Origin: Streptomyces sp. HUAS 15-9
GTDB lineage: Bacteria; Actinomycetota; Actinomycetes; Streptomycetales; Streptomycetaceae
Assembly: GCF_025642155.1 (NCBI RefSeq)
Contig: NZ_CP106798.1
Location: 3,720,001 to 3,784,000, forward strand
DNA length: 64,000 nt
Direction: 5' to 3'
Part shown: in pieces, positions 28,705 to 46,805 of the stretch
How the letters are laid out: every line of letters begins with the position of its first letter
Position numbering within the stretch: the stretch's first letter is position 1
Position numbers and translations under genes: made by a program
Notes under the pieces: generated by a model
What the model saw: only the letters and a program-made list of their open reading frames with translations
Told to the model about the DNA's origin: nothing
The model's database searches: none

Positions 28705-28780
28705 GCCTTCGTAGCTCAGGGGATAGAGCACCGCTCTCCTAAAGCGGGTGTCGCAGGTTCGAATCCTGCCGGGGGCACCA
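28705..28780 (+). tRNA. tRNA-Arg(CCU)
   Basis: The full cloverleaf folds: acceptor GCCTTCG with CGGGGGC, anticodon stem CCGCT/AGCGG, loop CTCCTAA with anticodon CCT at 28738 to 28740, T-arm GGTTCGAATCC, and encoded CCA. Its 3' 45 bases are repeated at 46761, so it is the integration target and is restored by the element. Confidence 0.96.
28736..28780. repeat. attL core repeat
   Basis: This 45-bp sequence, from the anticodon loop of tRNA-Arg to its CCA end, is identical to 46761 to 46805. Confidence 0.92.
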
Positions 28781-28858: not shown

Positions 28859-30019
28859 TCACTGGCGACCGGGGCGCTTCTTCCTGTTCCTGAGGAGCCG
28901 GTCCATGTGGCTCATGGCTTCGCGCTGGGTGTCCTGGACGACGTGGGTGTAGACGTCCATGGTGATGCTGATCTGGGAGTGGCCGAGGATCTCCATCACG
29001 ACGCGGGGTGCGACTCCGGCCGCCGTGAGGAGGGTGGCGGTGCCGTGCCGGGCATCGTGCAGCCGGATGACGCGGAGGCCGGCGGACTCGGCGACGCGGG
29101 TGAAGGAGCGGTAGAGGTTGCGCGGCTCGACGGGGCGGCCGGTGCGGGTGGCGAAGACGTAGTCCGAGTCCTGCCACCTCTCCCCTGCCTTGGTCCGGGC
29201 GGCTGCTTGCCGCATGCGGTGCCAGCGCAAGGGTGCGATGCAGAGGGCGGGCAGCGGGACGGCTCGACGGCGGCGGCTCTTGGGATCGTCGTCGTAGAGG
29301 ACGCCACGGCGGCGCTGGACCTGGTGGCGGACGTAGAGGACGCGGTTGTCGAGGTCGACGTCAGACCAGCGGAGGCCGACGATCTCTCCCCGGCGGAGCC
29401 CCATGGCGATGGCAAGGACGAACGCCGCGTAGAGCGGGTCCTTACGGGAGACGGCGAGGAAGTCGAGCGTCTCGTCCAGGGTCCAGGGGTGCAGCTCGGG
29501 CGTGTCCGTGCGAGGCGGCTCGACGAGCTTGGCGACGTTGCGCGTGATGAGTTCCTCTCGGCAGGCGGAGGACAGAGCCGAGCGTAGAACTCGATGCGAT
29601 TCCTTGGCGGTTGCGGCGGTGGTCTCCTTCTCCAGGCGGACTAGGAAGCGTCGGACGTCGGCGACGCCGAGGGATTCGAGGCGCTTGGCACCGAGGAGGG
29701 GCACCAGGTAGAGGCGGACGTGCGTCTCGTACTTGTCGAAGGTGCTGAGTTTCCGTCGGGGCTTGATGACGTTGTCCAGCCAGTACGGCAGCCACTCGGA
29801 GAGCTTGGCGGACTTGGTGGGCACGGGCACGCCCTGGTCCACCTTGTCGAGCAGCTCGCGGCGCTTGGCGTCGCACTCGGCCCAGGTCTTGCCGTAGGCG
29901 AACTTGCGGGCGCGGGTGCCGTCCGGCTGGAGCACGTAGACCGCGCACTGGAAACGTCCGTCCTTGCGCTTGGTGATGGTGCCGGCGCCGTTCGGATTGC
30001 GCTTGCGCTGCTGGGCCAT
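28859..30019 (-). CDS. int: tyrosine site-specific integrase
   Basis: A 386-residue phage-type integrase. The N-terminal arm-binding and SAM-like core-binding regions span about residues 1 to 165. The catalytic domain shows Arg209 in GLRRGEIVGL, HDAR with His321 and Arg324, His347 in GHSQ, and the nucleophile Tyr357 in DVYTHV. All needed residues are present. It recombines the tRNA-Arg core repeat. Its ATG overlaps the xis stop by one base (TGATG) and GGAGG precedes it. Confidence 0.96.
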   Translation of the reverse strand: MAQQRKRNPNGAGTITKRKDGRFQCAVYVLQPDGTRARKFAYGKTWAECDAKRRELLDKVDQGVPVPTKSAKLSEWLPYWLDNVIKPRRKLSTFDKYETHVRLYLVPLLGAKRLESLGVADVRRFLVRLEKETTAATAKESHRVLRSALSSACREELITRNVAKLVEPPRTDTPELHPWTLDETLDFLAVSRKDPLYAAFVLAIAMGLRRGEIVGLRWSDVDLDNRVLYVRHQVQRRRGVLYDDDPKSRRRRAVPLPALCIAPLRWHRMRQAAARTKAGERWQDSDYVFATRTGRPVEPRNLYRSFTRVAESAGLRVIRLHDARHGTATLLTAAGVAPRVVMEILGHSQISITMDVYTHVVQDTQREAMSHMDRLLRNRKKRPGRQ

Positions 30020-30207
30020 CAGGCAGCCTCCTCCAACTGGCCCAGGACGAAGTCCCGGACGGCATCGGCCGGGATCCGGCGGGCGCCGTCGATCTTGATC
30101 GAGACGAGACGGTGCGACCGGATGAGGTCATAGACCTTGGAGCGCCCGAGCTTGAGCCGGGCCATGACCTCCGGCACGGTCAGGAGTTCGGCGGTGGCGG
30201 TGGTCAT
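30019..30207 (-). CDS. xis: excisionase, helix-turn-helix
   Basis: A 62-residue protein with a MerR-like winged helix typical of actinomycete Xis proteins (LTVPEVMARLKLGRSKVYDLI). It would bend attL/attR DNA to direct excision with Int. ATG 30207 has GGGAG eight bases upstream. The ATG overlaps the repSA stop (ATGA), and its own stop overlaps int. Confidence 0.93.
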   Translation of the reverse strand: MTTATAELLTVPEVMARLKLGRSKVYDLIRSHRLVSIKIDGARRIPADAVRDFVLGQLEEAA

Positions 30208-31628
30208 GCTGCGGCTCCCTCCTCGGTGAGCTTGTCGCGCAGGGCGTCGCGGGCGGTCTCGCGGTTGGTCTGGAGGTCGCGAGCGATGGTGGCGGCGAGG
30301 GCGGCTTCGCCCGGGGTGTGGCCGTGGCCGGCGTATTGCCAGTCGGTCAGGACGAGGACGGTGTCCGGCTCGCGGTCGTCGATGCCGAGGGCGGAGGCCT
30401 CTTGGGCGGCGCGGTAGTCGGCGCGTTCCTGGCGGAGGGCGCCGAGGGTGGTGGAGTAGGTGCGCGACTTGGACGAGAAGTGGCCGCGGAAGCCGAGCAT
30501 GTGCGCCCAGGCCCAGAGACGTCGGTCTGGATAGAGGGCGTCCAGGTCGCGGCAGGCGGTGATGAGTCGGCGGGTGTGGTCGGGGACATGGTGGCGGTCG
30601 AGTTCGGCGAGTTCGCCGATACGGCGGTCGAGGGTGCCGGTGTTCTCGGCGGCTTTGGTGGCGTACTTGGCCACGTAGGAGGCGACGGCCTGTTCGGTGA
30701 TGTCGGAGCCGTCGCCGAAGGCCTTGACCGGGCGGACGTCGAGTTGCCGACCCCATCGGAAGGTTCGGGCGGGTTGGTCGGCGGCGGCCGGGACGGAGAC
30801 AGACGTGTACGAGTGCGCGGCGGCGGCGCGGGCCGCGTCGGTGAGGAGGCCGACCGTGGCCCAGGCGGGCGGTGGTGTGCCGGGTCCGTCGGGGCCGTCG
30901 AGGCGGATGACGGCGTGGAAGTGGAGGGCGCCGCGCTTCTGGAATTCGGCGACCTTGCCGTACGAGACGCGGAGGTGGTCGGCGAGTTCGCGGCGGGGCA
31001 GGCCGGCGCGGGCGGCGAGTTCGCGACGCAGGCGGGTGGTGAAGCGCTGCCAGAGCTGACCGGCGTGGTTGTTGAAGAGGACGGCGCCCGCGTAGTCGTA
31101 GGTGTTCGGGTCGAGAGCGGTGCCCAGCTCGGGAGCGTCGGGGGTGTGTGGAGTGCCGCAGCGGCAGGTGCCGCCGTGGTCGGGGCGGTTGTGGACCGGG
31201 CCGAAGGATGGCGCGGTGAGGGTGGCGAAGACACGGGGGTGGTCGCGGACGGCGGCGGGAATGTCGCGGCGGTGGTCTCCGGCGAGGCCGGCGCGGATCA
31301 GGTGGTAGGTGTCGCCCGCGTAGGTCCAGGCGCAGGAGGGGCAGCGGGAGGCGCGGCGGTTGCCGCAGGCGAGGCGGAGGCGTCCGCCCGGTTCGATGGC
31401 GGTGGAGTAGTGGTGCAGGGTCTCGCCGGTGGTCTTGTCCTTGTGGAGGGTCCAGCCGGTGAGGTGGATCGGGTCGGAGCAGCCGCCGGTACGGCGGATC
31501 TGGTCTTCCCAGCGGGTGTAGTCGGAGGCCGAGGCGACCCGGAGGACGTCCCGGAGGGTGGTCGGGTCGAGCGGCGGCGGGGCGGGCGTGTGCGTCTTCC
31601 GTGTCGCGCGTGAGGCCCGGTGGGCCAT
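30204..31628 (-). CDS. repSA: RepSA-like rolling-circle replication initiator
   Basis: A 474-residue protein. A Cys cluster at residues 88 to 99 (CGNRRASRCPSC) may bind zinc. The HUH motif is ALHFHAVI with His236 and His238. The likely catalytic tyrosines are Tyr318 and Tyr322 in ASYVAKYATK. It nicks the origin to start rolling-circle replication of the excised circle. GGAAGG precedes ATG 31628. It is first of three tightly overlapped genes with xis and int. Confidence 0.9.
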   Translation of the reverse strand: MAHRASRATRKTHTPAPPPLDPTTLRDVLRVASASDYTRWEDQIRRTGGCSDPIHLTGWTLHKDKTTGETLHHYSTAIEPGGRLRLACGNRRASRCPSCAWTYAGDTYHLIRAGLAGDHRRDIPAAVRDHPRVFATLTAPSFGPVHNRPDHGGTCRCGTPHTPDAPELGTALDPNTYDYAGAVLFNNHAGQLWQRFTTRLRRELAARAGLPRRELADHLRVSYGKVAEFQKRGALHFHAVIRLDGPDGPGTPPPAWATVGLLTDAARAAAAHSYTSVSVPAAADQPARTFRWGRQLDVRPVKAFGDGSDITEQAVASYVAKYATKAAENTGTLDRRIGELAELDRHHVPDHTRRLITACRDLDALYPDRRLWAWAHMLGFRGHFSSKSRTYSTTLGALRQERADYRAAQEASALGIDDREPDTVLVLTDWQYAGHGHTPGEAALAATIARDLQTNRETARDALRDKLTEEGAAA

Positions 31629-31673
31629 GCTGGTGGTTCCTTCCGGTTGCGAGATCGATCGGCGGAGACGGCT

Positions 31674-31713
31674 CCCGGGCGGCGGATGCTTGGCGGTATC
31701 GAGGCCGCCCGGG
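31674..31713 (-). other. 10-bp stem-loop upstream of repSA
   Basis: CCCGGGCGGC (31674 to 31683) and GCCGCCCGGG (31704 to 31713) form a perfect stem with a 20-base loop in the only gap of the transfer-replication operon. It may be an attenuator or part of the replication origin. Confidence 0.55.
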
Positions 31714-31719
31714 GGCCGG

Positions 31720-32049
31720 TCAGCGGCGCTTGGCCTCGGAGGCGAGCAGGGAGCGCAGGACGACCGCGCAGACGGCGACCGAGGCGCCGGTGATGGCGAC
31801 CGCCAGGAGCAGGGAGACAAGGACGGCGCCGACGACCAGGACGACGGCCGTACCGCCGCCGACCAGGACGAGGGCAGTGCCGGGGGTGAGCTGGACGACC
31901 GGGCGGGACGGCGGCGCGGGTACGGCGACGGGTGCCGACGGGACCGGTGCGGTCGGGGTTCCCGGGGTGATCGTGGTCGGGTGGATGACGGCGGGCGGGG
32001 TGGTCAGACCGGTGGGCTGGGGCATGGTCGGGAGCTTGGGACGGAACAT
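31720..32049 (-). CDS. spread protein-like membrane protein (SpdD/SpdB type)
   Basis: A 109-residue protein. A Pro/Thr/Val-rich N-terminal half (to about residue 52) precedes two hydrophobic segments at about 56 to 80 and 82 to 102. This layout and its position next to repSA fit the small Spd proteins of Streptomyces plasmids and AICEs, which help conjugated DNA spread through septated hyphae. AAAGGAG precedes ATG 32049. Confidence 0.75.
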   Translation of the reverse strand: MFRPKLPTMPQPTGLTTPPAVIHPTTITPGTPTAPVPSAPVAVPAPPSRPVVQLTPGTALVLVGGGTAVVLVVGAVLVSLLLAVAITGASVAVCAVVLRSLLASEAKRR

Positions 32050-32434: not shown

Positions 32435-32435
32435 G

Positions 32436-33607: not shown

Positions 33608-34963
33608 TCAGGCGGTAGCCGAGGACGCCTTGACCAGCGGCACGGACTCGACGTCGGAGCCGGGGAGAACAGGCCGGAACGGTGCCAGCTCGGGCAGGTC
33701 CGGGGTCCGGTCGGCGTGCCGGTTGCAGATGTTCACGGCCTGCCGGAGCGAGGTGTGCGGGGCGCGGATGCGGTGCCATCCGCCCGACGAGTCGCCCGCG
33801 ATGGCCAGCCCCCGCATCTCGGCCGGGATCTGGATGGCGGCGAGGACGGCGTCCGGGGAGATGTCGCCGAAGGCCATGTTGGCGGACGATTCGTCGTTGA
33901 CGCGGTGGGCGGTACGGCCCGTGAGCTGGGCGCGGAGCATGGTGATGCCCTTGCCGAGTTCGGAGCCGAAACGCTGCCCGCAGATTTCGAGGTAGATGCC
34001 GGCCGCGCGGCCGAGCTGGGCAAGGCGAACCAAAGCGGTGACGATGCGATCCCGGCGCTTCTCCTCCTTCTTGCTTGCATACAGGGCGAGTTCGGCGACC
34101 TCATCAACCAGAACCACGACCGGAACCGGGCGCAGATCGTCGGGCAGGTCCCAGATGTCGGCGGCGATCTCCGCATCCGGCACGTCGGAGGTGATCCGCT
34201 GCTGTGACCGGATGACCTGATAGACACGCTCCATCCGCGCCACCAGCGCATCGAGCACTTCGGCGGCGGTGTCGGGATCGTCGGCCAGCGCGGAGAACCG
34301 CCGGGCCAGTGGGAACAGTTCCACCCCCTGTTTGCAGTCGATGCCGACGAGGGCGACGTCCATCGGGGCCAGCCCAGCGACCAGGTTGCGTTGGTAGACG
34401 GACTTGCCGGACTCCGTGGCGCCGAGGGTGAGGGCGTGGGGTATCGCCCGGTAGTCGCGGTAGTGCACCGAGCCGTCCTGCCGCAGGGCGACCGGCACCC
34501 GCATCGGCCGCGGGTCGGTCTCGGCCGGCATCTGCACCCGCTTGAGCACGTCGTAGCCGGTCATCCGCACCTCTACGACGCCGGAACGCAGTTCCCGCGA
34601 GGTGACGCCGTACATGGAGAACGAGTGCCGGAGCCGGTCCGAGGCGGCGGCGATATCGAAGGCGTCCTGTCCGGGGCGGAGCTTGAGCCGCAGGACGAGG
34701 CCGGTACGGGTCGGCCGCAGCCGCAGGATGCGCGGCGGACGCGGCTCGGGGATCGGCCGGTTGGTGGCACGGGCCAGAGCGAGTCGCCACCGGGCGGGCG
34801 GGACGGTCAGTCCGCACGCGTCCATGACCGAGCCGTACCGGACCAGGACCCGCACCACGGCCAGCGTGACCCCGAAGGTCAACCAGTACCAGGCGGGGCG
34901 CCGCCACCGCAGGAGACCCACGGCGGCGACGACCAGCACCAGAGCGACCGTGAACCCGGTCAT
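33608..34963 (-). CDS. FtsK/SpoIIIE-type DNA translocase, TraB/TraSA-like
   Basis: A 451-residue protein with two N-terminal membrane segments (about residues 3 to 42), then an FtsK motor domain with Walker A GATESGKS at 181 to 188 and Walker B VVVLVDE at 282 to 288. The C-terminal part likely carries the DNA-recognition helix. A single such hexameric motor moves double-stranded plasmid DNA between Streptomyces hyphae. It starts two bases after the previous stop. Confidence 0.93.
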   Translation of the reverse strand: MTGFTVALVLVVAAVGLLRWRRPAWYWLTFGVTLAVVRVLVRYGSVMDACGLTVPPARWRLALARATNRPIPEPRPPRILRLRPTRTGLVLRLKLRPGQDAFDIAAASDRLRHSFSMYGVTSRELRSGVVEVRMTGYDVLKRVQMPAETDPRPMRVPVALRQDGSVHYRDYRAIPHALTLGATESGKSVYQRNLVAGLAPMDVALVGIDCKQGVELFPLARRFSALADDPDTAAEVLDALVARMERVYQVIRSQQRITSDVPDAEIAADIWDLPDDLRPVPVVVLVDEVAELALYASKKEEKRRDRIVTALVRLAQLGRAAGIYLEICGQRFGSELGKGITMLRAQLTGRTAHRVNDESSANMAFGDISPDAVLAAIQIPAEMRGLAIAGDSSGGWHRIRAPHTSLRQAVNICNRHADRTPDLPELAPFRPVLPGSDVESVPLVKASSATA

Positions 34964-34965
34964 GA

Positions 34966-35322
34966 TCAGGCTGCCTTGGGCCCTGCGGCGGCGCCGGCGA
35001 GCGAGGTGACCGCGACCGCGCGGAACGCAATGCCGTGCCGCTTCTGGCCGTTGAAGTCGTTCTCCCACGGCCGGGCGATGAGCCCCGTGAGCGCGACCGG
35101 CGTACCCATGGCCAGCTCACCGGAGATACCCGGCTCCGGAACGGTGATGGACAGGATCTCCACCTCCTCGTTCGCCGCGAACATCACGTCCACCGTCATC
35201 AGCTTCGCCCCGGTCTCGGTGTCGGTGGCGATCTCGCCGGTACGGCGGTCGCGCACCTTGACCTGCGGGGACTTGGCGACCATCACGACCGCGCCGGAGG
35301 TGTCGACGGGAATCTGACGCAC
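34966..35322 (-). CDS. conserved AICE protein upstream of the translocase
   Basis: A 118-residue protein rich in beta-strand-like sequence (starting MRQIPVDTSGAVVMVAKSPQ). GAGGAG lies eight bases before GTG 35322; the frame stays open 12 codons further up, into the operator palindrome. It begins the leftward transfer operon. Homologues sit at this place in many Streptomyces elements, but no function is known to me. Confidence 0.75.
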   Translation of the reverse strand: MRQIPVDTSGAVVMVAKSPQVKVRDRRTGEIATDTETGAKLMTVDVMFAANEEVEILSITVPEPGISGELAMGTPVALTGLIARPWENDFNGQKRHGIAFRAVAVTSLAGAAAGPKAA

Positions 35323-35354
35323 AGGGATCACTCCTCTATAGATGTTGAACTCCG

Positions 35355-35408
35355 CCACTCATGTACATGAGTGGCATGAAGAAGAGTGCATCACTCCTGT
35401 ACATGAGT
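35355..35408. promoter_or_regulatory. two KorSA-type operators of the transfer operon
   Basis: A perfect 20-bp palindrome, CCACTCATGTACATGAGTGG (35355 to 35374), and a near copy, ACTCCTGTACATGAGT (35393 to 35408), have centres 36 bases apart. A third near copy is at the nudix start. They lie 33 bases before the first transfer gene, so repression by the adjacent GntR protein is likely. Confidence 0.8.
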
Positions 35409-35460
35409 CAACCCGCCGCGAAGAAGAACTCGCGACGGGCTGTGAGAAGTTGAGCGGCCG

Positions 35461-36240
35461 TCAGTCGTCCGCAGGGATCCGGTACTCGAAAACGAACTGG
35501 TCAGCGGCCATGAGCGTGTCGCACACCTCGACCACGAGACCCGCGACCGTACGCGCCTCCCGGATCAGATGAATCACCGGAGCACCCGGGCTCAGCGCCA
35601 GCTCCGTGGCCTCCGCCTTCGAGGCCGGCCGCGCTTGCAGCGTCTCGACGAACTCCGCGAACTGATGCCCGTGGTCTTCCAGTCGGGCGTAGATGCCACC
35701 GCCGCCGGGGTTCTCGGCGAACAGCTCGGGGATGTCCTTCACGACGTCCCAGGGCAGGTAGGACGTGGCGGTCTCGACCGGCGTGCCGTTACGGAAGTAC
35801 AGGCGTCGGCGGGCCAGCACCTGCGTACCGGCGGGGACGCCCAGCCGCTCGGCGGCATCCTCGGGCGCCTCCATGGGCCCGATGTAGAGGACGCTCACCT
35901 TGGCCGTGGCCCCGGACTGCGCGGACTCCGCGAGGTAGGCCGCCTGCCCCCCCTGCCGAAGCGAGCGCCGGAAGCGATCGGAGGAGCGGTGCCGCACCGG
36001 AGGCCGGTTCTTCACGATCGAGCCCTTGCCGTGCCGGGTCTCGACCAGCCCGCTAGCCCGCACCTCGACCATGGCCTTACGAATCGTCCCGCCGGACACG
36101 CCATAGCGATCCACCAGCTCAGACTCACTCGGCACCATGTCACCAGGCTTCAGAACCCCCGCCCGAATCTGCTGCACGATCTCGTCCGCGATCTGTACGT
36201 ACCGAGGCCCGGAACCGACCCCTCCCGCCGCAGTTCCCAT
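35461..36240 (-). CDS. GntR/HutC-family repressor, KorSA-like
   Basis: A 259-residue protein. A GntR winged helix fills about residues 12 to 78 (VPSESELVDRYGVSGGTIRKAM), and a UTRA ligand domain follows to the end. AGAAGG precedes ATG 36240. In pSAM2 KorSA represses the pra activator; here three matching palindromes flank this gene and are its probable sites. Its 5' leader overlaps the start of the divergent nudix gene, only 18 to 30 bases away. Confidence 0.88.
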   Translation of the reverse strand: MGTAAGGVGSGPRYVQIADEIVQQIRAGVLKPGDMVPSESELVDRYGVSGGTIRKAMVEVRASGLVETRHGKGSIVKNRPPVRHRSSDRFRRSLRQGGQAAYLAESAQSGATAKVSVLYIGPMEAPEDAAERLGVPAGTQVLARRRLYFRNGTPVETATSYLPWDVVKDIPELFAENPGGGGIYARLEDHGHQFAEFVETLQARPASKAEATELALSPGAPVIHLIREARTVAGLVVEVCDTLMAADQFVFEYRIPADD

Positions 36241-36260
36241 AGTCCTTCTCTGCCTCCTAT

Positions 36261-36276
36261 GCTCCTCTACATGAGT
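36261..36276. promoter_or_regulatory. operator overlapping the nudix start codon
   Basis: GCTCCTCTACATGAGT matches the two operators at 35355 and 35393 (right half identical). The ATG of the nudix gene at 36271 lies inside it. TATGCT at 36258 could be the -10 of a leaderless transcript. Confidence 0.65.
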
Positions 36277-36723
36277 CAACCACAGGAAGCGACACCCTCC
36301 CCCCTGCACTCCGTGTCCGTAGCCGGAGCAGTGGTGCGCGAGGACGGCCGCCTCCTGGCGATCCGCCGAGCCGACAACGGCACCTGGGAACTCCCTGGCG
36401 GCATCCTCGAACTCAACGAGACCCCCGAAGCCGGCGTCGCCCGCGAGGTCCTCGAGGAGACCGGCATCCACGTCGAGATCGACGAACTCACCGGGGTCTA
36501 CAAGAACACCACCCGAGGCATCGTCGCCCTGGTCTTCCGCTGCAAGCCCTCCGGCGGCACCGAACGCACCTCCAGCGAATCCACGGCCGTCTCCTGGCTC
36601 ACCCCCGACGAGGTCAGCGACCGCATGTCCGAGGTCTACGCGGTCAGACTCCTGGACGCCCTGGACGGCAACGGCCCCCACGTCCGCAGCCACGACGGCA
36701 AGCGCCTCATCCCAGCGGGATAA
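36271..36723 (+). CDS. Nudix hydrolase, Pif-like
   Basis: A 150-residue protein with the Nudix box GGILELNETPEAGVAREVLE at about residues 44 to 63, followed by ETGI, giving the full GX5EX7REUXEEXGU pattern. pSAM2 Pif, which blocks redundant transfer into cells already carrying the element, also contains a Nudix motif and sits near korSA, so an immunity role is likely. No ribosome site precedes ATG 36271, which fits a leaderless message; ATG 36259 is an alternative. Confidence 0.85.
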   Translation: MSQPQEATPSPLHSVSVAGAVVREDGRLLAIRRADNGTWELPGGILELNETPEAGVAREVLEETGIHVEIDELTGVYKNTTRGIVALVFRCKPSGGTERTSSESTAVSWLTPDEVSDRMSEVYAVRLLDALDGNGPHVRSHDGKRLIPAG

Positions 36724-36769
36724 AATCTTCTCTCCATCATCAAGGCGGCTCGCTCCGCTCCCCGCGCGC

Positions 36770-36790
36770 GGCCCGGCCCCCGGCCGGGCC
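36770..36790 (+). terminator. GC hairpin after nudix gene
   Basis: GGCCCGGCC-CCC-GGCCGGGCC, a perfect 9-bp stem 47 bases past the nudix stop, without a T run. Confidence 0.5.
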
Positions 36791-36896
36791 TGCGCTCCTG
36801 TCTCCGCCCCGCTCCAGCCCGGCCGGCGCCCGTGCCGCGCACAGAGCAATCAGCCGCCTGACGCCAGAGAAGGGGTACGTCGTGGCTGGGGCGGTC

Positions 36897-37030
36897 GGCT
36901 CCGCGGCTTTACGGAGCCACTTTGGCGCGAGCCTCGAAGATCATGGCCCCAACGTCGTGCTTTACCGGGCAGGTCCACAGACTGCCCGACGCGCCGGAAG
37001 CTTACGGGGCCATGATCACTCGCGCCAAAG
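36897..37030. other. nested inverted-repeat block
   Basis: Three structures occupy 134 bases. GGCTCCG/CGGAGCC is at 36897 to 36918. A long stem has arms 36920 to 36931 with 37019 to 37030 (12 bp, perfect) and 36939 to 36950 with 37006 to 37017 (12 bp, perfect). Inside it CGGGCAG/CTGCCCG is at 36966 to 36988. It is non-coding and lies between the nudix gene and the HNH gene. It may be a structured RNA, a transfer locus or a replication origin. Confidence 0.75.
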
Positions 37031-37090
37031 CAGCGCCACCCCAAAGCCGCTACACCGACCTCAGATAAAAGGCGCACTGCGGGTATTCAA

Positions 37091-37945
37091 TCAGAGGGGA
37101 GCCTCACAAAGGATCTTCGCAGTAAGACTGGCTTCCCTATGCCCGCGAATAGCACATCGCGCCACGGCCGAGTACTCGGCCGAGCGAGTCATAAATTGCG
37201 CCAGCTCCGCCAACCTCTCCTTGTATTCAACCCGCATGTCGGAATTACCCGTAAGAATCAATTTATAAATTCGATCAGCCCTCCCGCAGAGCGATATCAT
37301 CTTCAAATGTATCCTCTTCCTCTCTCTGACGGTATACGGATGATCTAAGTGCAAAATCACGCGCGAAGAATCAATGCGACTCATCGCCAAAGGGTCTGTC
37401 AGCACCATCGAGGTGTTAAGTCCCAGCTTTCCTTCCTCGTCGTACCAAACGGTTGATACATCGAGGACCGAGCAGGGATCCAAGAGTAGGGGCTCTTCAC
37501 AATCAATGGAGTCATTCGGCCCGTAAGCTCGGTATGAACCGACCGCCAGCGGGAAATGGTCCTGTTTGCCACCGGCGCTACCCGACTCTGCGTGCTTTCG
37601 CCTACTGTTGCAGTAAGTGCACGCGTATCGATAATTCTTGTAGTCGAAGGCCAGCCACCAGTAACCCGGATGGTTCGCATCCTCGGCCACTTTCCCCTTA
37701 GGGCGATAGTGGTCTACAGCATTATCCGATCGCGTATTCTTTGACTCGCAGTACCAACACTTCCCATGCGAGGCTTCTGACAATTTCTCTTTGACTTCAC
37801 GCCAAAGGTCAGAATGGTCCTTGAGGATTTTATCTCTCTCGTCATCGGAACTTGCTTGCTCAAGCTCACGCGTAACAGAAGCGCACTCCTTCTTCCACTC
37901 TGCGGGCAGCAGAGAAGCAACTTCCAAGAGATCAATAAGAATCAC
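37091..37945 (-). CDS. HNH endonuclease, PtuB-like
   Basis: A 284-residue protein. Zinc-binding pairs CWYC (residues 63 to 66) and CTYC (109 to 112) flank DHYRPK with the catalytic Asp78-His79, and Asn104 or Asn113 completes an HNH pattern. The closest group I recall is the HNH partner of Septu (PtuB) and of retron-linked Septu effectors. GTG 37945 lies one base behind the ATPase stop, with GGGGAGAG upstream, so the two are coupled. Base composition is near half GC, well below the host. Last gene of the cargo operon. Confidence 0.85.
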   Translation of the reverse strand: MILIDLLEVASLLPAEWKKECASVTRELEQASSDDERDKILKDHSDLWREVKEKLSEASHGKCWYCESKNTRSDNAVDHYRPKGKVAEDANHPGYWWLAFDYKNYRYACTYCNSRRKHAESGSAGGKQDHFPLAVGSYRAYGPNDSIDCEEPLLLDPCSVLDVSTVWYDEEGKLGLNTSMVLTDPLAMSRIDSSRVILHLDHPYTVRERKRIHLKMISLCGRADRIYKLILTGNSDMRVEYKERLAELAQFMTRSAEYSAVARCAIRGHREASLTAKILCEAPL

Positions 37946-37946
37946 G

Positions 37947-39509
37947 TTACTCTCCCCCGGGCGCTGTGAAATCGCCTTCGCTAAGGACTTCCCTCAGGAG
38001 GTCTTGAGCGGCTTCGCGGTTTTCCTCGATCTCTTCACGCGAAAATACTAGAGGCGCATCGATGCCCCCCTCCTCGCTGAGCTTCGCCCGCAAGTACTCT
38101 TGAAACTCTGGATCCCTATCTTCCATAAGGAGACCTAGCGCTTGAAGCTTTTCACTCAGCCCGCGCAACTCCTCCGCCTCAACAGAGGATAGGTAGTCCC
38201 GCGAGGCTAGATCTCTTTTCCGATCGAGAAGCTCAAGTGTTTCGAGGTCGAGTTGCGACCTCAATCCATAGACGTCACTCGTCAGCAAATTACCGACGCC
38301 CATACCGCGGGGATCCTCGATTGGTGCAGACGCCGAGATCGTCCCATCGTCATGGCGTTCCAGGATGCGGACTTCCGACTTCAGGAGGCCGGCCACTACT
38401 AGAGGATCGTGCGTGGCCATCAAAACGTGCGACGTCTCGTCCAGCGCACCGAAATCATGCAGGAATTGCCTGTATCGAACACTCCAGGCCGGATTAAGGT
38501 GCGTGTCTGGTTCATCCAACAAGAAGAGCGATTCTTCTTCCCTCGTGAATCTCATAAGACCTAGTACCAAAAGCAGCTGCTGCTCGCCCTCACTGAGTTG
38601 TCTGAAAGTAAGGGAAGAAGAACCTCGTTCCGTCGAAACTCGGATCCGAACATCGTGAATCAATTCCGACATGTAGGTACTTTCGAGCGCCTTGAAGAAC
38701 TCCTGATTGCTTGGGTAGGCGCTCGCTAGTGCCCGAGTCTCAGCAAGCCCGGATAGATATAGAAAGAGATGCTCTGAGCGGCTAAACCTAGCCAGCCCCA
38801 CGGGAACTCTTCTATCGAGTCTCATTGGCGCGAGCGCGATCGCATACAAGCGATCCAGGAAACTCCTGACTGTGCCTCTTGCATTCCAGAAGCGCTTATC
38901 TCCGGACCGGCTATGCCATGATGGCTTCTGCATGACAAACATGACTGACTCAAGGTCATGTATACCGAGTAACCCCTTGAGGAGTCTTTGAACGGTGGGG
39001 TCGTCATCCAAGAAAAACGCAAGCAGGACGAAGCTGGAGTAAACATTCCTCGCGTAAAAGAGAGGACGCAAGGGCTTCTCTTCACCTCGAAGAAGATCCC
39101 TATAAAAGCGCTCCTGGTGGGCACTGAAGTGCTCCTCCAGCCGATTGCTCGGGCCGGAGTAGTAACCGAATACATGCCGAGGCCGATAACTCGCCCCTAC
39201 ATTACCCACAAACTTGCCATTCGGAATAACATCCCCGTTCACTGAACAGGTGAGATGAATCGAGCCAGCGTTCTCCGCCGCTGATACGTGAATCAAGTCG
39301 CCGCTGATCTCATACTTTAGGTCATACTCGAATCTCGGAGTAAGCCCCAAGTCGAGATCCCGGAAGATCACCGTGAGTGCTTCCAGCAGGTTTGATTTGC
39401 CAGCGCCGTTACGCCCGACAAGAACTGATACTGGCGCAGTATTGTCGAATGACACATGGAAATCATTCAGATTTTTGAATCTGCGTACACCAACTTCAAG
39501 TATTCTCAT
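37947..39509 (-). CDS. ABC/SMC-type ATPase, PtuA-like
   Basis: A 520-residue protein. Walker A GRNGAGKS is at residues 32 to 39, the ABC signature LSEGEQQ at 305 to 311, Walker B LFLLDEPDTHLNP at about 328 to 340, and the H-loop His367 in ATHDP. There is no OLD-type TOPRIM domain. The 120-residue C-terminal tail is charged and helical. This matches the AAA ATPases paired with HNH nucleases in Septu. ATG 39509 overlaps the hsdS stop by four bases. It probably senses invading DNA and controls the nuclease. Confidence 0.87.
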   Translation of the reverse strand: MRILEVGVRRFKNLNDFHVSFDNTAPVSVLVGRNGAGKSNLLEALTVIFRDLDLGLTPRFEYDLKYEISGDLIHVSAAENAGSIHLTCSVNGDVIPNGKFVGNVGASYRPRHVFGYYSGPSNRLEEHFSAHQERFYRDLLRGEEKPLRPLFYARNVYSSFVLLAFFLDDDPTVQRLLKGLLGIHDLESVMFVMQKPSWHSRSGDKRFWNARGTVRSFLDRLYAIALAPMRLDRRVPVGLARFSRSEHLFLYLSGLAETRALASAYPSNQEFFKALESTYMSELIHDVRIRVSTERGSSSLTFRQLSEGEQQLLLVLGLMRFTREEESLFLLDEPDTHLNPAWSVRYRQFLHDFGALDETSHVLMATHDPLVVAGLLKSEVRILERHDDGTISASAPIEDPRGMGVGNLLTSDVYGLRSQLDLETLELLDRKRDLASRDYLSSVEAEELRGLSEKLQALGLLMEDRDPEFQEYLRAKLSEEGGIDAPLVFSREEIEENREAAQDLLREVLSEGDFTAPGGE

Positions 39510-41128
39510 GAAGGGGCGCCGATCGTGACAAAGACCAGTTCATCGTCTGGGCGATCAATGTCGATGCGTCCATCTTTCGATAGATCACGAAGCAGGGCAT
39601 AGAAGTCGTCTACAGCATCGTCTTCCAAACGCATACTACGATATAGCTCTGCGGGGCTAATTCGACCACCTGACGACTTAAGAATCTGAAGCAAATTATC
39701 AGCGTTCGCCACGCCGCCCTCTGCACTCATTTCGCCCGTTTTCCTTACCTGGGAGGTTTTCTTCTTAGCAGGAGCCTTTACCGAAGACTGTCGCTCAAGC
39801 ATTCGGTTGACGAGGTTTTGCGTTTCGACTCCTGTCATGGAGTTACTCAAGCTCTGCGAAATAGTGCGCGCCAGATCACCATAGGCCAGTCCCGCAATCG
39901 TAAGCACTTCTGTCTTTAGCAGATGTTGCTGGCTTTCGACCAGGGCGGCCCTAGCCTCGTTGGCCTTATCAACGACTTGATTAATCAAGTTCACTTGCCG
40001 GCGTTGTTCGGTGACTTTTGGGATGGGAACCGGTAGTTGGCGCACGTCACGCAGATTTAGGCCCGGCATGTCGATTCCTCGCATGCGGTCAGACAGCCAA
40101 CCTTGCACCCAATGGCTTGAGAGCCAATGTGCTAGATACTCGCTTTCCAAGTCTTCGCGTGGCCGGAGGCGAGCAATTCCCCTGTTGATGTTCCCGCCAT
40201 CCAGTTCGGGGGGAACCACTGCAACACGTGTATTACGGATAATTCCCAGCAACACATCACCAGAGGCGATAGCTGATCGAGAGAACTTCTCATGAACTGC
40301 CACCGACGTGTTCCGCAACTGGCCCTCGGTAACCTCGCCATTCTGCAGGTCTTGCTGTTGCACATATGGAACTCCAGTTCCATCCTCCACATCCGGTCCA
40401 GGTTGCAGGATCCCGTAAACGATCGGAGCATCGGGGGCAACTGCCTCAGCAGCAGTTACCCATGATGGGTCTGCTTCGCTCGGAAAGGACTCCTCCTCTG
40501 GGTCACGATCACCGATGATCACTTGATCCCGGAAGTTCCGCACCAAGAAGTCCAGGTCTGGAACGGACTCTGCTAGGACATGGCGAGCAGTGTCTACTCG
40601 CTCTTGAAATACGCGCGCCGTGTCCGCTAGAAGCTCTTGAATGGCCCGAGGTGGAATCGGAAAAGGCAAAGATTTAAATCTATTAAGCCCTAGGTGGGCG
40701 ATATTTGTTGTTGCTTTCGCGATCTGCGAGAACACGCCCTCCTTTTGGTAGGCTCGAAAGACTAGTAGTGCGTACTCGGGAAGGATCTCCTTATGTGGGC
40801 GAAACCTAATGATACTGTTCTGAAAAAATAGTTCTTCGAGTTCACCGCGGTACACGGCGGCTCGCCCTACTAGCTCTCGGCTCTGCCCTTCGCACAGAAG
40901 CACGTCGCCATCCTTGAGGCGGTACTTCTCCCGCGCTTCACTGGAAAAGTTCATGGTGGCTAGATCGCTGAGATCGATCTCGTCGTCAAAAACATTCGCC
41001 ACTCGGAGGTACGGATACTGCTCCGGCGCCAAGGACGCTGCCGGCGTCTTCTGTTGCCCAGAGATCGCGTCCCCGGCTTCGGCCACCTTGCAAACTGCCC
41101 AGCCGTCAGGAAATTCTTTCCTTATCAC
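39506..41128 (-). CDS. hsdS: type I specificity subunit with C-terminal winged-helix-like extension
   Basis: A 540-residue protein with two target-recognition halves. The first ends in SLPFPIPP (153 to 160) and a helical spacer; the second ends in LPVPIPKVTEQRRQV (365 to 379) and another spacer to about residue 420. This is a complete bipartite HsdS of about 420 residues. A Lys-rich linker (about 450 to 465) then leads to an extra domain at 473 to 540 resembling a winged helix (LLQILKSSGGRISPAELYRS). Its start overlaps the hsdM stop (ATGA). Confidence 0.87.
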   Translation of the reverse strand: MIRKEFPDGWAVCKVAEAGDAISGQQKTPAASLAPEQYPYLRVANVFDDEIDLSDLATMNFSSEAREKYRLKDGDVLLCEGQSRELVGRAAVYRGELEELFFQNSIIRFRPHKEILPEYALLVFRAYQKEGVFSQIAKATTNIAHLGLNRFKSLPFPIPPRAIQELLADTARVFQERVDTARHVLAESVPDLDFLVRNFRDQVIIGDRDPEEESFPSEADPSWVTAAEAVAPDAPIVYGILQPGPDVEDGTGVPYVQQQDLQNGEVTEGQLRNTSVAVHEKFSRSAIASGDVLLGIIRNTRVAVVPPELDGGNINRGIARLRPREDLESEYLAHWLSSHWVQGWLSDRMRGIDMPGLNLRDVRQLPVPIPKVTEQRRQVNLINQVVDKANEARAALVESQQHLLKTEVLTIAGLAYGDLARTISQSLSNSMTGVETQNLVNRMLERQSSVKAPAKKKTSQVRKTGEMSAEGGVANADNLLQILKSSGGRISPAELYRSMRLEDDAVDDFYALLRDLSKDGRIDIDRPDDELVFVTIGAPS

Positions 41129-42531
41129 TCGTCACCAACTTCGATCGATTCCCGTCGTGCGGCGGCTACCAACGAGCTGTCTCGCAACATTTCTTCTACC
41201 TCCCCAATAGCCTGCTGAGCAGCCGTGATGCAGTCGAGAAGGGCTACTGCGACATCATGAGGTGTCCGGTGGACGCTTTCAGCAGCACTCTGTGTCCCTG
41301 AAGTGCCAGCTAGGTCCAACCTGTCATCTACCGACCTCAAGTCCTCGCGGGTTACACACCTGAATCGATCGGTCTCCTCTCGCTCGGCGCGGCCGAGAGG
41401 ATCACTTCCGTAGCACTGAAGGAAGTCTCCTAGGTCAGAAATACCTAGCGGCTTACGCTTAGTGAATGAGCTGGAGGAAGACCTGAGGTCATAGATCCAG
41501 GTCGAATGAGTAGGGCCGTCTGCACAGAAGAAGAGAACTGACGTCCTGATTCCAGTTGCATAAAAGATGCCAGTCGGCAGCCTGAGGATCGTGTGCAGTC
41601 GATAGTTGTCGAGTAGATGGGTCCTAATCGACGATGCGACCCCCGACTCAAAAAGGACGTTGTCGGGGACTACGACGGCCGCTCTACCTCCCGCACTGAG
41701 GCTCTTGTAAATATGTTGGAAAAATCCTAGCTGCTTGTTCGATGTCCGGTAATCCATGTACTGACTTTGAGTCGCCGACAAGTTGCCTTTCACTCCAAAT
41801 GGAGGATTCGTCAGGCATACAGACACCTGCAGCGCCTTGGGATCTCGACTAAGGGAATCGCCAAGTTCGATTTCTCCCTGCAGGTCATGCAGTAGCAGGT
41901 TCATAAGTCCCATGCGTTGGACATCATGCACTAGCTCAACACCATGTAGTCGAGGCTGTTCTTCGCCTTGATTTTGCGTGTGTAGGCCAGCCGCTACCAG
42001 AAAACCTCCGGTGCCTGCTGCGGGATCATAAACGGTGTCGCTATCCGTTGGATTAATCGCTTGTACCAAGGCGTCGACAACCGCCCGGGGAGTGAAGTAC
42101 TGACCAGTTCCATACCTCGACTCCTGGGCATTTTTTTCAATGAGGCCCTCATAGACATCACCAAGCCCATTTTGACGAGCGCGATACCAGTCAATTTCAT
42201 CGATGCCATTGATCAACTGCCTCAGCGCATCACCTGAAGTCAGACGAGTCTCCGCCTCGCCGTAAATCGTTGCTACCGTCTCATCCTGCGATGATCCAAG
42301 ACGTTCCAATATGTCGCTATAAATGCCAGCAACTTCATCCGATCTTGCTTCTCGTAGCACTGCCCAACGGCAGTTCACTGGAAGCCGTTCCTCCATGCCG
42401 AGCTCTGCGGCCAACTTCAAGAAAAGCAAGTACGTAAGCTCATTGAGGTACTCGTGATAGGTGACTCCCTCATCACGAAGAACCGCACAGAGCGACCAAA
42501 GCCGCCGTGTAACGTCTGACGTATCCCTCAT
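41125..42531 (-). CDS. hsdM: type I N6-adenine DNA methyltransferase subunit
   Basis: A 468-residue protein. The N-terminal helical domain precedes RYGTGQYFTPRAVVDAL (139 to 155). The SAM motif DPAAGTGGF is at 169 to 177 and catalytic NPPF at 242 to 245. ATG 42531 follows GAAGG and overlaps the stop of a small upstream frame; the frame stays open further up. With HsdS it should methylate adenines at a bipartite site. No HsdR translocase is encoded nearby. Confidence 0.92.
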   Translation of the reverse strand: MRDTSDVTRRLWSLCAVLRDEGVTYHEYLNELTYLLFLKLAAELGMEERLPVNCRWAVLREARSDEVAGIYSDILERLGSSQDETVATIYGEAETRLTSGDALRQLINGIDEIDWYRARQNGLGDVYEGLIEKNAQESRYGTGQYFTPRAVVDALVQAINPTDSDTVYDPAAGTGGFLVAAGLHTQNQGEEQPRLHGVELVHDVQRMGLMNLLLHDLQGEIELGDSLSRDPKALQVSVCLTNPPFGVKGNLSATQSQYMDYRTSNKQLGFFQHIYKSLSAGGRAAVVVPDNVLFESGVASSIRTHLLDNYRLHTILRLPTGIFYATGIRTSVLFFCADGPTHSTWIYDLRSSSSSFTKRKPLGISDLGDFLQCYGSDPLGRAEREETDRFRCVTREDLRSVDDRLDLAGTSGTQSAAESVHRTPHDVAVALLDCITAAQQAIGEVEEMLRDSSLVAAARRESIEVGDE

Positions 42532-42764
42532 CTGGTTCCTTCGGGTCGTGCGAAAGCATCGGCACAGGGTAGGCAGGTCATGATCCCACGGTGAGTCGAG
42601 TTGAGGCCCAGGGCTCTCAGTTCGCGGCTCGGCCTCCACACCTGGGTCCCCCGTGCTCGGGCCCGCTGGATGTCCGCTGCTACTTCGGCTGCTACTGGCT
42701 GCTTCGGATCCTTGTGATCTCCCTCGCCCTGTCCCTGCCGCCTAGATGTGTCTGGCCTGCGCAT
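42528..42764 (-). CDS. possible small protein coupled to hsdM
   Basis: A 78-residue frame ending in a TGA that overlaps the hsdM ATG. The C-terminal part reads GIMTCLPCADAFARPEGTR, with a Cys-x-x-Cys pair. Codon bias is weak and no ribosome site is evident, so it may be chance; the four-base overlap with hsdM is the argument for it. Confidence 0.35.
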   Translation of the reverse strand: MRRPDTSRRQGQGEGDHKDPKQPVAAEVAADIQRARARGTQVWRPSRELRALGLNSTHRGIMTCLPCADAFARPEGTR

Positions 42765-43449
42765 CGTAGCGAGCGAGGGTCTGCCTGGTGCCGTATACAG
42801 CGGTTCAGCAGCCGAGATCCCGATATTCAGGCGGTGTTGTCAGTACCGCTTGGTGCGTTGATCATCGTGGCTCCAGTTCACCCCATCAAGCAGCTGGCGC
42901 CGTCCCGATCGGATGAGGAGACGAATGTCGGCTTCGTTGACGTTCGCGTCGGCACGGCCTCATCCGAACACGCGAGCGCCCTACCGGACCGCCGTCCTGA
43001 GCTGTGGAGGGCCCTCAATGCTGACCGACGTCGACAGCCGCCAACAGCTGTCCAACAGGTAAGGGCGCTGGTTGATAAAGCAACCGCAATCCACGGCTGC
43101 CCGAGATCAAGTGGGAACAGCAGGCAATCACAGGGAAAGGCGCTCAGCCCAACGCAGTGACGGAACAAGGATTCGGCCACGTCAGCGCCCCAAATGCTCC
43201 TAAAATGCCCTAGCTTCCCAAGCAGATGGCTCAGGCGGTGCAGTCGGACCGGCCGTCGCAACTTCTCTGGTCGACGACGCCGGCAACGAAGCTAAGACCG
43301 GCGGGGGTGCCGCGAGGCATACGCGCGCGTGATCGGTCGGCACAGCCGCCGTCGTGGCTGACTGTCGTCGGCTGAGGCTCAGACAGTCACAGAGAGATTC
43401 CTCCTCGAATCGATGCGCTGCATATCGCCTGAGGTCGGCATGACGCGAC
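42765..43449. other. region without supported genes
   Basis: Open frames exist on both strands but have inconsistent codon bias and no recognisable motifs. The promoter of the hsdM operon is presumably near its left end. Composition is intermediate between the cargo and the right arm. Confidence 0.5.
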
Positions 43450-43489
43450 GGGGAGGGGAGCCCGAGTTGATGCTCAGGCTTCCCTCCCC
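43450..43489 (-). terminator. terminator of the right-arm operon
   Basis: GGGGAGGGGAGCC (43450 to 43462) pairs with GGCTTCCCTCCCC (43477 to 43489) with one G-U pair, 59 bases past the last leftward stop. Confidence 0.7.
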
Positions 43490-43547
43490 GCCAGGAATGG
43501 CCGTTATCGTCAAGCGCCCTTCCGCTCGCTACCTGTCACTCGCCCTG

Positions 43548-43838
43548 TCACTCGCTCATCGCCAGGAGGTGACCGCGGCTGGTCGCGACGCGGAGGACAG
43601 CTCGCAGAGCGCCAGTCAGTTCTTTCGCCAGGCCCCGCACGACCTCCGGGTCCGTGTCCTGGTCGTCGAGGGCTTCGCAGGCTCGTTCCAGCAACTCCCC
43701 CGCCGTCCCGAGTTGGACTGCCTCGATGTTGTCCGCCAGGCGGGACATGGAGCCGTCCGGGTCGTCGGTGCTCAGGTAGCAGGGCTTGCCCTCCGGCCCC
43801 GACCACGGGAGGAGCCGCAGTTCGTTCAGTGCCGTCAT
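43548..43838 (-). CDS. hypothetical protein of right-arm operon
   Basis: A 96-residue soluble protein, mainly helical and acidic (MTALNELRLLPWSGPEGKPC at the start). Its ATG overlaps the stop of the GntR gene (ATGA). It is the last gene before the terminator. No domain is recognised; homologues I recall sit beside GntR genes in AICEs. Confidence 0.65.
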   Translation of the reverse strand: MTALNELRLLPWSGPEGKPCYLSTDDPDGSMSRLADNIEAVQLGTAGELLERACEALDDQDTDPEVVRGLAKELTGALRAVLRVATSRGHLLAMSE

Positions 43839-44578
43839 CCTTGCGTCTGCCTCTCGTCGGTCATGTGGTGGGTTGTGAAGACTGCGTCGACGCATTCCCC
43901 TGGGAATGCCAGTAGTGCGGCTTCCACGACTCGACCGGTGGGGTCGGTCGCGACGCGTGTGATCGCGAGGATGGGTGGAGCAGAACCGATGCGGAGGGCC
44001 GAGACTTCGTCCGGCGTTGGCTGACGGGCGCACACCGTCTCCCTCACGGCGGTCGGCGACGGGCCCAGTACGCCGAATCTCGTGACCGTCTCCCGACATG
44101 TGGACTCGTCGTCGAGGACCCCGGCCGGTACGAGGTCATGCGGGATGTAGATGCGGGCCAGCCCGTGCGGTGCGTCTCCTTCGAGGCTGACGCAGGTGAA
44201 CTCGGCAAGGGGACTACCCGTGGGCACCTTCAGCAAGGTCGTCAGATGCCCGTGAGCCTGCACCGTCGCGCTGCGAACGGTGACGCGTAGGGGCGCATCG
44301 GCGGCGGTCCAGGGGTCCAGCGTGCCCCAACCGCCGACGTACATGATCTTGCGCACTGGGCGGCGGACGAAGTTGCCCTTGCCGTGGATCTTCTCGACGA
44401 GGCCTTCCCTTTGGAGCACCGCGAGGGCGTTCCGCAGAGTCACCGTGCTGACCTTGTACCGGACGGCCAGGCCGGCTTCGGAAGGAAGACGCTCGCCAGG
44501 CTGGATCCGACCGGTCGTGATCTGGCGCCGGAGATCCTCGGCGATGTCGTGGTGGCGAGAGGGCACGACTCCGGTCAC
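43835..44578 (-). CDS. GntR/HutC-family regulator
   Basis: A 247-residue protein. The winged helix at about residues 8 to 75 contains LPSEAGLAVRYKVSTVTLRNAL, and the rest is a UTRA domain. GTG 44578 is chosen because it overlaps the previous stop in GTGA with AAGG just upstream; a GTG four codons later is possible. It lies within an operon of small proteins and probably controls it or a chromosomal target. Confidence 0.82.
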   Translation of the reverse strand: MTGVVPSRHHDIAEDLRRQITTGRIQPGERLPSEAGLAVRYKVSTVTLRNALAVLQREGLVEKIHGKGNFVRRPVRKIMYVGGWGTLDPWTAADAPLRVTVRSATVQAHGHLTTLLKVPTGSPLAEFTCVSLEGDAPHGLARIYIPHDLVPAGVLDDESTCRETVTRFGVLGPSPTAVRETVCARQPTPDEVSALRIGSAPPILAITRVATDPTGRVVEAALLAFPGECVDAVFTTHHMTDERQTQG

Positions 44579-44799
44579 CGCCTTCTCAGCGTTCGCGCGG
44601 CGACTAGCCGGGTGCGCCTGTGTATGGTCAGCGACTCGCCTGACTCGAAGACGAGTTGTTTGGCGCCGTGAGGGAGTTGGAAGAGGTCTCTCACCCGGTA
44701 GGCACAGCCGCCGAGTTGGATGATGTCGCCGCACTGCACAGTGGTCGAGGTGACCTCGATGTTGGAGATCAGAGCGCCACCGGGGAGCCGTTCGCTCAC
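44575..44799 (-). CDS. small hypothetical protein of right-arm operon
   Basis: A 74-residue, beta-rich protein (starting MSERLPGGALISNIEVTSTT). GGAGG lies about seven bases before GTG 44799, and both ends overlap neighbours by four bases (GTGA). No recognised domain. Confidence 0.65.
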   Translation of the reverse strand: MSERLPGGALISNIEVTSTTVQCGDIIQLGGCAYRVRDLFQLPHGAKQLVFESGESLTIHRRTRLVAARTLRRR

Positions 44800-44999
44800 C
44801 GCGCCACCTCCGCAGGCGCGGACTGGTCACGCGCCATGTGGCACGGGCAGTTGCACGCTTCGTAGATCAGCGGCAGGTCGACCGACGCCGAGGCCGGGGA
44901 GGACTCCGCGCAGGCGGGATGGGTGCCGATGCGGCAGGCGGTCGATCGGTAGAGGGCGGCGGGGGTGTCCGCGATACGAAGCTGTTGACGGGGAGGCAT
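44796..44999 (-). CDS. small Cys-rich hypothetical protein
   Basis: A 67-residue protein with CRIGTHPAC and a CNCPCH cluster near the C-terminus, so a metal site is possible. It starts in TGATG with the previous gene and ends in GTGA with the next. Confidence 0.6.
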   Translation of the reverse strand: MPPRQQLRIADTPAALYRSTACRIGTHPACAESSPASASVDLPLIYEACNCPCHMARDQSAPAEVAR

Positions 45000-45310: not shown

Positions 45311-45322
45311 GCTGTTCAGCTC

Positions 45323-45601: not shown

Positions 45602-45638
45602 AGGCAGCCTCCGTCACCAGCGATCACTTTGAGTGAAG

Positions 45639-45669: not shown

Positions 45670-45678
45670 ATTTTCCAT

Positions 45679-46655: not shown

Positions 46656-46760
46656 CATCCAACGCTGACATCAACGAGGCCGGACGGCGGCATACAGCAG
46701 CACCCCCGAGCGGCCGTCGGACCAGCCGTCGACGGCCCCAGAGGCGGGGGTAGATCGAAC

Positions 46761-46805
46761 TCCTAAAGCGGGTGTCGCAGGTTCGAATCCTGCCGGGGGC
46801 ACCAT
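46761..46805. repeat. attR core repeat
   Basis: This is an identical 45-bp copy of 28736 to 28780, the displaced 3' end of the original tRNA-Arg. Confidence 0.92.

Follow-up and report, generated by a model that had tools for sequence, protein, structure and literature searches.

A Septu-like ATPase–nuclease pair joined to a tailed type I methylase–specificity module: a possible restriction class in which HsdR is optional

The stretch of Streptomyces sp. HUAS 15-9 DNA analyzed here (contig NZ_CP106798.1, positions 3,720,001 to 3,784,000; 64,000 nucleotides, hereafter the window, to which coordinates refer unless another locus is named) carries an hsdM-hsdS-ptuA-ptuB operon, in which a type I N6-adenine methylase and a specificity subunit stand beside an ABC-type ATPase and an HNH nuclease that resemble PtuA and PtuB of Septu, and which has no HsdR. 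The comparisons described below suggest, at what we consider an even chance, that this operon is a modular derivative of a type I system in which a C-terminal tail on HsdS would couple modification sensing to PtuAB, and in which PtuAB could be the sole effector. We propose more tentatively, as a reading that falls a little short of even, that it represents a widespread and unnamed class of restriction-modification systems, in which the tailed HsdMS would gate PtuAB according to modification state, HsdR would be optional and lost many times, and the target-recognition domains (TRDs) of HsdS as well as PtuB would be swappable.

All four genes lie on the minus strand. The hsdM gene (41125..42531, 468 residues, with an alternative GTG start upstream at 42639) matches Pfam N6_Mtase at 212 bits as well as HsdM_N, and its NPPF motif occupies codons 242 to 245 (41797–41808). 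The hsdS gene (39506..41128, 540 residues) encodes a two-TRD specificity subunit with two Methylase_S stretches in Pfam, and alignment of HsdS proteins delimits the tail, probably winged-helix-like, as its last 75 codons (39509..39733, minus strand). The ptuA-like gene (37947..39509, 520 residues) matches Pfam AAA_21/AAA_15 and has the Walker A sequence GRNGAGKS at 39393–39416, and the ptuB-like gene (37091..37945, 284 residues) has an HNH core at about 37595–37762, no Pfam match at E 1e-3, and a match to TIGR02646 of 35.1 bits, below the cut-off. In a search of defense-system models, as the first-pass annotation of the window had advised, the best PADLOC models for the four products are MTase_I (PDLC03026, 522 bits), Specificity_I (PDLC03167, 563 bits, residues 5–536), PtuA1 (PDLC00293, 602 bits, near full length) and PtuB1 (PDLC00330, 287 bits), and none of the NCBIfam matches shown for them reaches its cut-off. 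The hsdM/hsdS and hsdS/ptuA pairs overlap by 4 bases each and ptuA and ptuB are separated by 1 base, which is the layout of four leftward genes that the first-pass annotation had described; its phrase "fused in one operon" is right as to the operon, but the genes are separate. Its remark that the genes are near half GC within an element of about 70% GC likewise agrees with a GC content of 0.51–0.58 at 37–43 kb (about 54% for the operon) versus 0.65–0.75 elsewhere in the window.

The arrangement is conserved well beyond this genome. Genome contigs were scanned with a profile from an alignment of 28 PtuA proteins, and the four families were sought, by phmmer and by profiles made from the loci themselves, in 80 loci, the best of 261 encoding a relative. 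All four genes are present in 76 of these 80 ATPase-selected loci, which span 18 named phyla, include one archaeon (Methanosarcina), and comprise two loci without a phylum assignment, so the conserved hsdM-hsdS-ATPase-HNH neighborhood for which the first-pass annotation proposed a search does exist. That annotation had also said that ATPase-HNH pairs regularly occurring without hsdMS would speak for a chance pairing, and one such pair was found among the 80: three of the incomplete loci (L016, L026, and L050) end at a contig edge, and only L046, with flanks present, lacks both hsdM and hsdS, which means that a stand-alone two-gene Septu does not describe the set. Locus L046, from Tengunoibacter tsumagoiensis, has a PtuAB pair of the same clade with no hsdM or hsdS within 10-kb flanks, and a broken, more distant PtuAB locus without hsdMS was found outside the set (L127). 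The gene order is hsdS, ptuA, ptuB, with hsdM first in 43 loci and last in 33, a position for which a quickly built tree of 81 PtuA rows requires at least 12 changes; the hsdS gene is split or apart from ptuA in a few loci (L025, L074, and L075), and the hsdM of L003, the nearest relative of the window, is divided between two frames.

Active-site residues are kept across these loci, both with and without HsdR. In PtuA, K38, S306, E307, G308, Q310, Q311, D332, E333, and H367 are found in 81 of 81 sequences; in PtuB, H79, N104, N113, and K127 are found in 80 of 80; and the N242-P-P-F245 motif is present in all 79 aligned HsdM. The description of the nuclease as Cys4-HNH holds for the window PtuB but not as a family trait, C63 being present in 80 of 80 sequences, C109 in 49, and C66 and C112 in 33 each. 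PtuA, PtuB, and HsdM show correlated pairwise distances (Spearman 0.41–0.56, with 0 of 500 permutations as high), a correlation that common ancestry alone could explain. The PtuA clade is rare in Actinomycetota: a strong match was found in one of 396 genomes, the window's own (E 8e-254, the next best being 1e-10), and matches at E ≤ 1e-40 in at least 5 of 392 Streptomyces genomes, both counts being lower bounds that consider up to three candidates per genome.

The feature that sets most of the PtuAB-linked HsdS apart is an extra region of about 65 to 75 residues beyond the usual HsdS C-terminus in the alignment. A profile made from 43 tails recognized 44 of 45 held-out PtuAB-linked HsdS, many of them kin of the training tails, with L130 as the miss, and 0 of 20 HsdS without PtuAB, the resident HsdS of this genome included. 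Family matches to the tails are weak and single, with HARE-HTH in 2 of the 43 and others in 1 of 43, and from these together with the helix pattern we infer a winged-helix-like fold. Searched against the PDB, the tail profile found no relative that could be interpreted, the best match being a PscE chain (E 3e-5) followed by integration host factor; in a PDB search with PtuB, the retron I-A PtuB appeared at E 0.25–0.32, ranked under an apparently unrelated hydrolase at 0.002. A candidate separate tail gene in L025 was rejected, since the small open reading frame (ORF) and the hsdS ORF overlap in different frames. The tail, which the first-pass annotation had missed, is the best candidate for a physical link between the HsdMS and PtuAB halves of the unit.

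HsdR behaves as an optional fifth gene. It is found in 28 of the 80 loci, on the same strand and upstream of the four genes (five of these HsdR, in L020, L024, L068, L076, and L078, are fragments or end at a contig edge), and 12 of the 80 loci have the order HsdR-HsdS-effector-HsdM. In 35 loci, L046 among them, there is no HsdR with at least 3.5 kb present on both sides, and the remaining 17 are short-flanked and were assigned to neither state. The first-pass statement that the operon is without HsdR is therefore true of the window, where none was found in the 64 kb, and does not extend to the 28 related loci. A wider set of 26 HsdR queries, which unlike the first set picks up the resident enzyme, left every HsdR-less or undecided locus without an HsdR match at E 1e-3, and a Pfam scan of 18 of the 53 large frames flanking such loci found none; a frame flanking L019 has weak helicase matches (ResIII and UvrD_C_2) and no HsdR family. 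These added searches strengthen the HsdR-less calls. The possibility of a missing fifth gene in HsdR-less loci was considered and rejected, as clustering of flanking ORFs gave only HsdR, in the HsdR-bearing loci, in operon position; other recurrent flanking families are few and scattered, and some look by eye like integrases or resolvases. On the quickly built 81-row PtuA tree, HsdR switches state at least 15 times, and the count is 20 on an 89-row FastTree tree with plasmid rows and the HsdR-bearing outgroup L124–L126, where at equal cost an HsdR-bearing root needs 20 changes and an HsdR-less root 21, so that parsimony alone does not settle the direction of change.

For comparison with type I loci that lack PtuAB, the window HsdM was searched against 392 Streptomyces genomes and matched in 42 of them at E ≤ 1e-50, at 45 places. 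PtuAB is known at 3 of these: in the window itself, in L124 (G558:5472225), and in L126 (G685). Twenty of the other places, mostly top-scoring, were taken, and one (L169) was cut short, leaving 19 with hsdM and hsdS; among these 19 none has adjacent PtuAB and 18 have HsdR. The sole locus without it, L187, has an internal TGA in hsdM, and a weak PtuA-profile match in L181 (46 bits), to another ATPase frame, was left out of the PtuAB count. The ratio of HsdR-bearing to HsdR-less loci is thus 28/35 with PtuAB versus 18/1 for the PtuAB-less Streptomyces loci (Fisher p = 6e-5, uncorrected for kinship), which gives a direction and not a proof, because the two samples have a different taxonomic make-up and their rows are kin. 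HsdR seems dispensable mainly where PtuAB is present, and since loci without HsdR abound alongside PtuAB but are scarce in its absence, PtuAB may be able to stand in for HsdR. To this extent the first-pass suggestion that PtuAB replaces HsdR gains support, but the arrival of PtuAB did not in itself displace HsdR, because 28 of the 80 loci and the distant Streptomyces loci L124–L126 keep both. These last three, our class III (HsdR plus PtuAB), have the order R-S-M-A-B in L124 and R, an S-M fusion, and A-B in L125 and L126; in both of the latter, HsdS and HsdM form one ORF (5383–8736 of L125 and 5455–8751 of L126; 1118 and 1099 residues from one stop to the next), with HsdR on one side and PtuA-PtuB on the other.

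An HsdR elsewhere in the genome, for which the first-pass annotation had advised looking, does exist. The genome's one HSDR_N match and both of its SWI2_SNF2 matches fall outside the window, and the HSDR_N match sits with its own hsdM (an 877-residue frame) and hsdS (a 414-residue frame) half a megabase off; the second, weak SWI2_SNF2 match, at C1:3413196, scores 27.9 bits against a cut-off of 26.7 and has no hsdM or hsdS within 3.6 kb around it. The resident and window HsdM are 29% identical over 235 residues, and the resident HsdS (L113, 14855–16096) is 41% identical to the window HsdS (39506–41128) over 231 residues in the first recognition region, so that the two may share a half-site. Because it is accompanied by its own hsdM and hsdS, the resident HsdR is no obvious missing partner, and it is unlikely to be a hidden partner of the window HsdMS.

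The recognition domains of HsdS diverge between close relatives. The comparison took in pairs whose PtuA share 70% identity or more and whose HsdS frames reach 450 residues, with region limits placed at fixed fractions of the alignment. At least one TRD falls under 35% identity in 31 of 34 HsdR-less pairs (drawn from 22 loci, so that pairs have members in common), with the other TRD at 60% or more in 14 of the 31; a TRD under 35% also occurs in all 7 HsdR-bearing pairs and in 17 of the 18 mixed ones. The HsdR-less pairs without such divergence are the window with L003, L012 with L015, and L064 with L071. Judged by these identities, TRDs are swapped among the HsdR-less relatives, as they are in working restriction systems. 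Specificity thus diversifies in HsdR-less loci, a sign that the mark may still have consequences there, and this favors PtuAB gated by modification over an HsdMS that is bait only.

PtuB also varies independently in part of the set. Annotated hsdS lies close to 6 of 6 plasmid matches, one of them broken, and with ATPase genes of the plasmid loci as blastn queries, matches were found in 8 and 9 of 5426 complete Escherichia coli genomes, 10 of them distinct. Four of the ten E. coli loci were read, and each has hsdM-hsdS-ATPase-"hypothetical protein", HsdR being absent from the annotation of the retrieved stretch; in profile searches each of the four has PtuB and a tailed HsdS, and none has HsdR. 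A distant PtuB occurs in otherwise similar loci (L134, L136, L129, and L133), and the E. coli loci L134 and L136 are 85% identical in HsdM, 74% in PtuA, and 31% in PtuB, as if PtuB effectors had been swapped between loci. Among the neighbors of the HsdR-less operon are Fic/DOC-family genes, in the E. coli islands L137 (9745–10362) and L136 (10785–11402) and in the Vibrio and Pantoea plasmid loci L133 (4594–5673) and L128 (14089–15618). The Pseudoalteromonas sp. KG3 plasmid locus L130, which bears HsdR, has an Abi-family gene inside and an extra restriction endonuclease after ptuB.

In the mechanism that we propose, HsdM2S would mark a bipartite site on self DNA, and the HsdS tail would tether PtuA, with PtuB, to this complex. 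When an unmodified site is met, PtuA would use ATP to activate PtuB, which would cut nucleic acid. Where HsdR is present PtuAB would be a second effector, and where it is absent, as in the window, the only one. PtuB could act on the DNA of the invader or on RNA of the cell, for instance tRNA, both kinds of substrate being reported for other PtuAB: in the portions of the sources that treat them, retron Eco7 and Septu EcB88 have PtuAB that cleave tRNA-Tyr, and another Septu reportedly acts on nicked DNA (PMC11555353, PMC13096335).

Several points weigh against this proposal. The tail was not detected in the class III loci L124–L126 and not recognized in L130, and because the class III loci have PtuAB and HsdR with no detectable tail, the tail is not universal to the combination of PtuAB with type I genes. 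Unlike HsdR, PtuA is no translocating motor, which rules out cutting in the way known for type I enzymes. The 28 loci that hold both HsdR and PtuAB fit an accessory or a guard role equally, and the occasional exchange of PtuB for a distant one implies that it need not be tuned to its HsdMS. A locus was called HsdR-less when the retrieved flanks, 3.5 kb or more to either side, contained no HsdR; the search for an HsdR in trans covered the window's genome only, and that genome does contain one complete resident HsdR and one weak SWI2_SNF2 match. The PtuAB-less control, finally, consists of 19 loci from one genus.

The main rival, which we regard as rather unlikely, is a guard of the PrrC kind, in which HsdMS, with HsdR where present, would hold PtuAB silent through the HsdS tail until an anti-restriction protein or DNA mimic disturbed the complex and released cutting of tRNA or DNA, leading to abortive infection; in HsdR-less loci, HsdMS would then serve as bait and methylase only. 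The guard idea draws on the 12 loci with the R-S-effector-M order, which is the order HsdR, HsdS, PrrC, HsdM given for the PrrC locus in part of one source (PMC11555353), on a passage of another that places PrrC in a type IC locus and has it fire on inhibition of that enzyme (PMC12707154), on the cleavage of tRNA-Tyr by the retron Eco7 PtuAB and by that of one Septu, and on the 28 loci that keep HsdR. Yet a bait needs no TRD swapping, which 31 of the 34 HsdR-less pairs show, and there is little to guard once HsdR has been lost, yet hsdMS remains in 34 HsdR-less loci with methylase and nuclease motifs kept.

A second alternative, improbable in our estimate, is that no complex forms, HsdMS methylating self DNA while PtuAB acts as an ordinary Septu with its own trigger that is blocked by the mark, as separate restriction and modification enzymes. 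Septu functions as a two-gene system in E. coli, according to the relevant part of PMC13096335, and modules do recombine between loci, both of which suit this explanation; the HsdS tail, found with PtuAB and in 0 of 20 HsdS without it, and the placement of the tailed hsdS before ptuA argue against it, and PtuAB of the same clade occurs without hsdMS only once in the 80 loci (L046), apart from the broken and distant L127. That the operon is a chance pairing of an orphan methylase and a Septu on a mobile element, where cargo mixes, is almost certainly wrong and was rejected, being contradicted by the neighborhood data, in which the S-A-B order recurs and 76 of 80 loci, across 18 named phyla, are complete, and by the specificity of the tail.

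The hsdMS-ptuAB unit shares features with several named systems. The window ATPase and HNH nuclease share with Septu their best PADLOC models and the ptuA-ptuB order with its 1-base gap, but differ in being linked to hsdM and a tailed hsdS, and against the NCBIfam equivalog models of the retron Ec78 type both are below the cut-off (PtuA 40.4 versus 500 bits, PtuB 24.5 versus 150). From type I restriction-modification systems the unit has an HsdM with intact motif and a two-TRD HsdS, and HsdR in 28 of the 80 relatives; it differs in that the window lacks HsdR and has the HsdS tail and PtuAB in addition. Like PrrC of EcoprrI, an ABC-type ATPase with a nuclease sits in a type I locus, with the R-S-effector-M order in 12 of the 80, but PrrC is a single protein with an anticodon-nuclease domain and comes with HsdR, whereas here there are two proteins, an HNH nuclease, and often no HsdR. 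MADS likewise brings together a methylase, an S subunit, and an AAA ATPase, but has more genes than this four-gene unit, and the window reaches none of the cut-offs of the MAD2, MAD3, and MAD5 models (89.8 of 720, 33.1 of 420, and 63.4 of 400 bits). The nearest NCBIfam ATPase model is TIGR04435 (restriction system-associated AAA ATPase), which all 19 PtuA tested match at E 1e-10, with a top score of 162 bits against a cut-off of 300; a TIGR04435 survey of 396 Actinomycetota genomes gave nothing at E ≤ 1e-60, and its controls were unmatched as well.

Within the literature, passages of PMC8565338 describe Septu as ptuA and ptuB, or as both with a reverse transcriptase. A section of PMC12839542 (2026) reports OLD-ABC ATPases coupled to various nucleases in restriction-modification-like systems, and a preprint on defenses embedded in other systems is cited in part of PMC12255303. 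We recognized no description of hsdMS with ptuAB in the literature searched, outside of which lie bioRxiv preprints and a 2020 survey of ABC ATPases, and an earlier description is possible. That survey, of ABC ATPases in conflict systems by Krishnan et al., is probably the source of the statement on OLD-ABC ATPases in such systems.

In the window, the hsdM-hsdS-ptuA-ptuB operon is the cargo of an integrated pSAM2-like element of 18.1 kb (28736–46804). The element is bounded by an exact 45-base repeat, of which one copy (28736..28780, plus strand) is an attachment site in the 3' part of a tRNA-Arg gene (28705–28780, ARAGORN) and the other (46760..46804, plus strand) is the second attachment site. 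It encodes, on the minus strand, an integrase (28859..30019; Pfam Phage_integrase, 97.8 bits), a RepSA-type (pSAM2) replication initiator (30204..31820, start uncertain; Pfam RepSA, 494 bits), and an FtsK/SpoIIIE-type transfer ATPase (33608..35068, start uncertain; Pfam FtsK_SpoIIIE, 153 bits). Nudix-like and GntR-like ORFs, judged by eye, adjoin the operon at 36135–36723 (plus strand) and 35461–36849 (minus strand), and we take them to resemble the pra/korSA regulators of pSAM2-type elements.

If the proposal is correct, HsdR-less type I loci and Septu-like pairs of this kind would be one system, which family-based classifiers would split into two incomplete ones. Restriction would then be gated by a type I specificity complex and executed by an ABC ATPase–HNH pair with no type I motor. 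This would also help to explain why different PtuAB have different targets and triggers, as the attached sensor may set the trigger, like the retron in Eco7. The occurrence of HsdR-less versions in E. coli opens the unit to direct test, and it is there that restriction and guard action would be separable.

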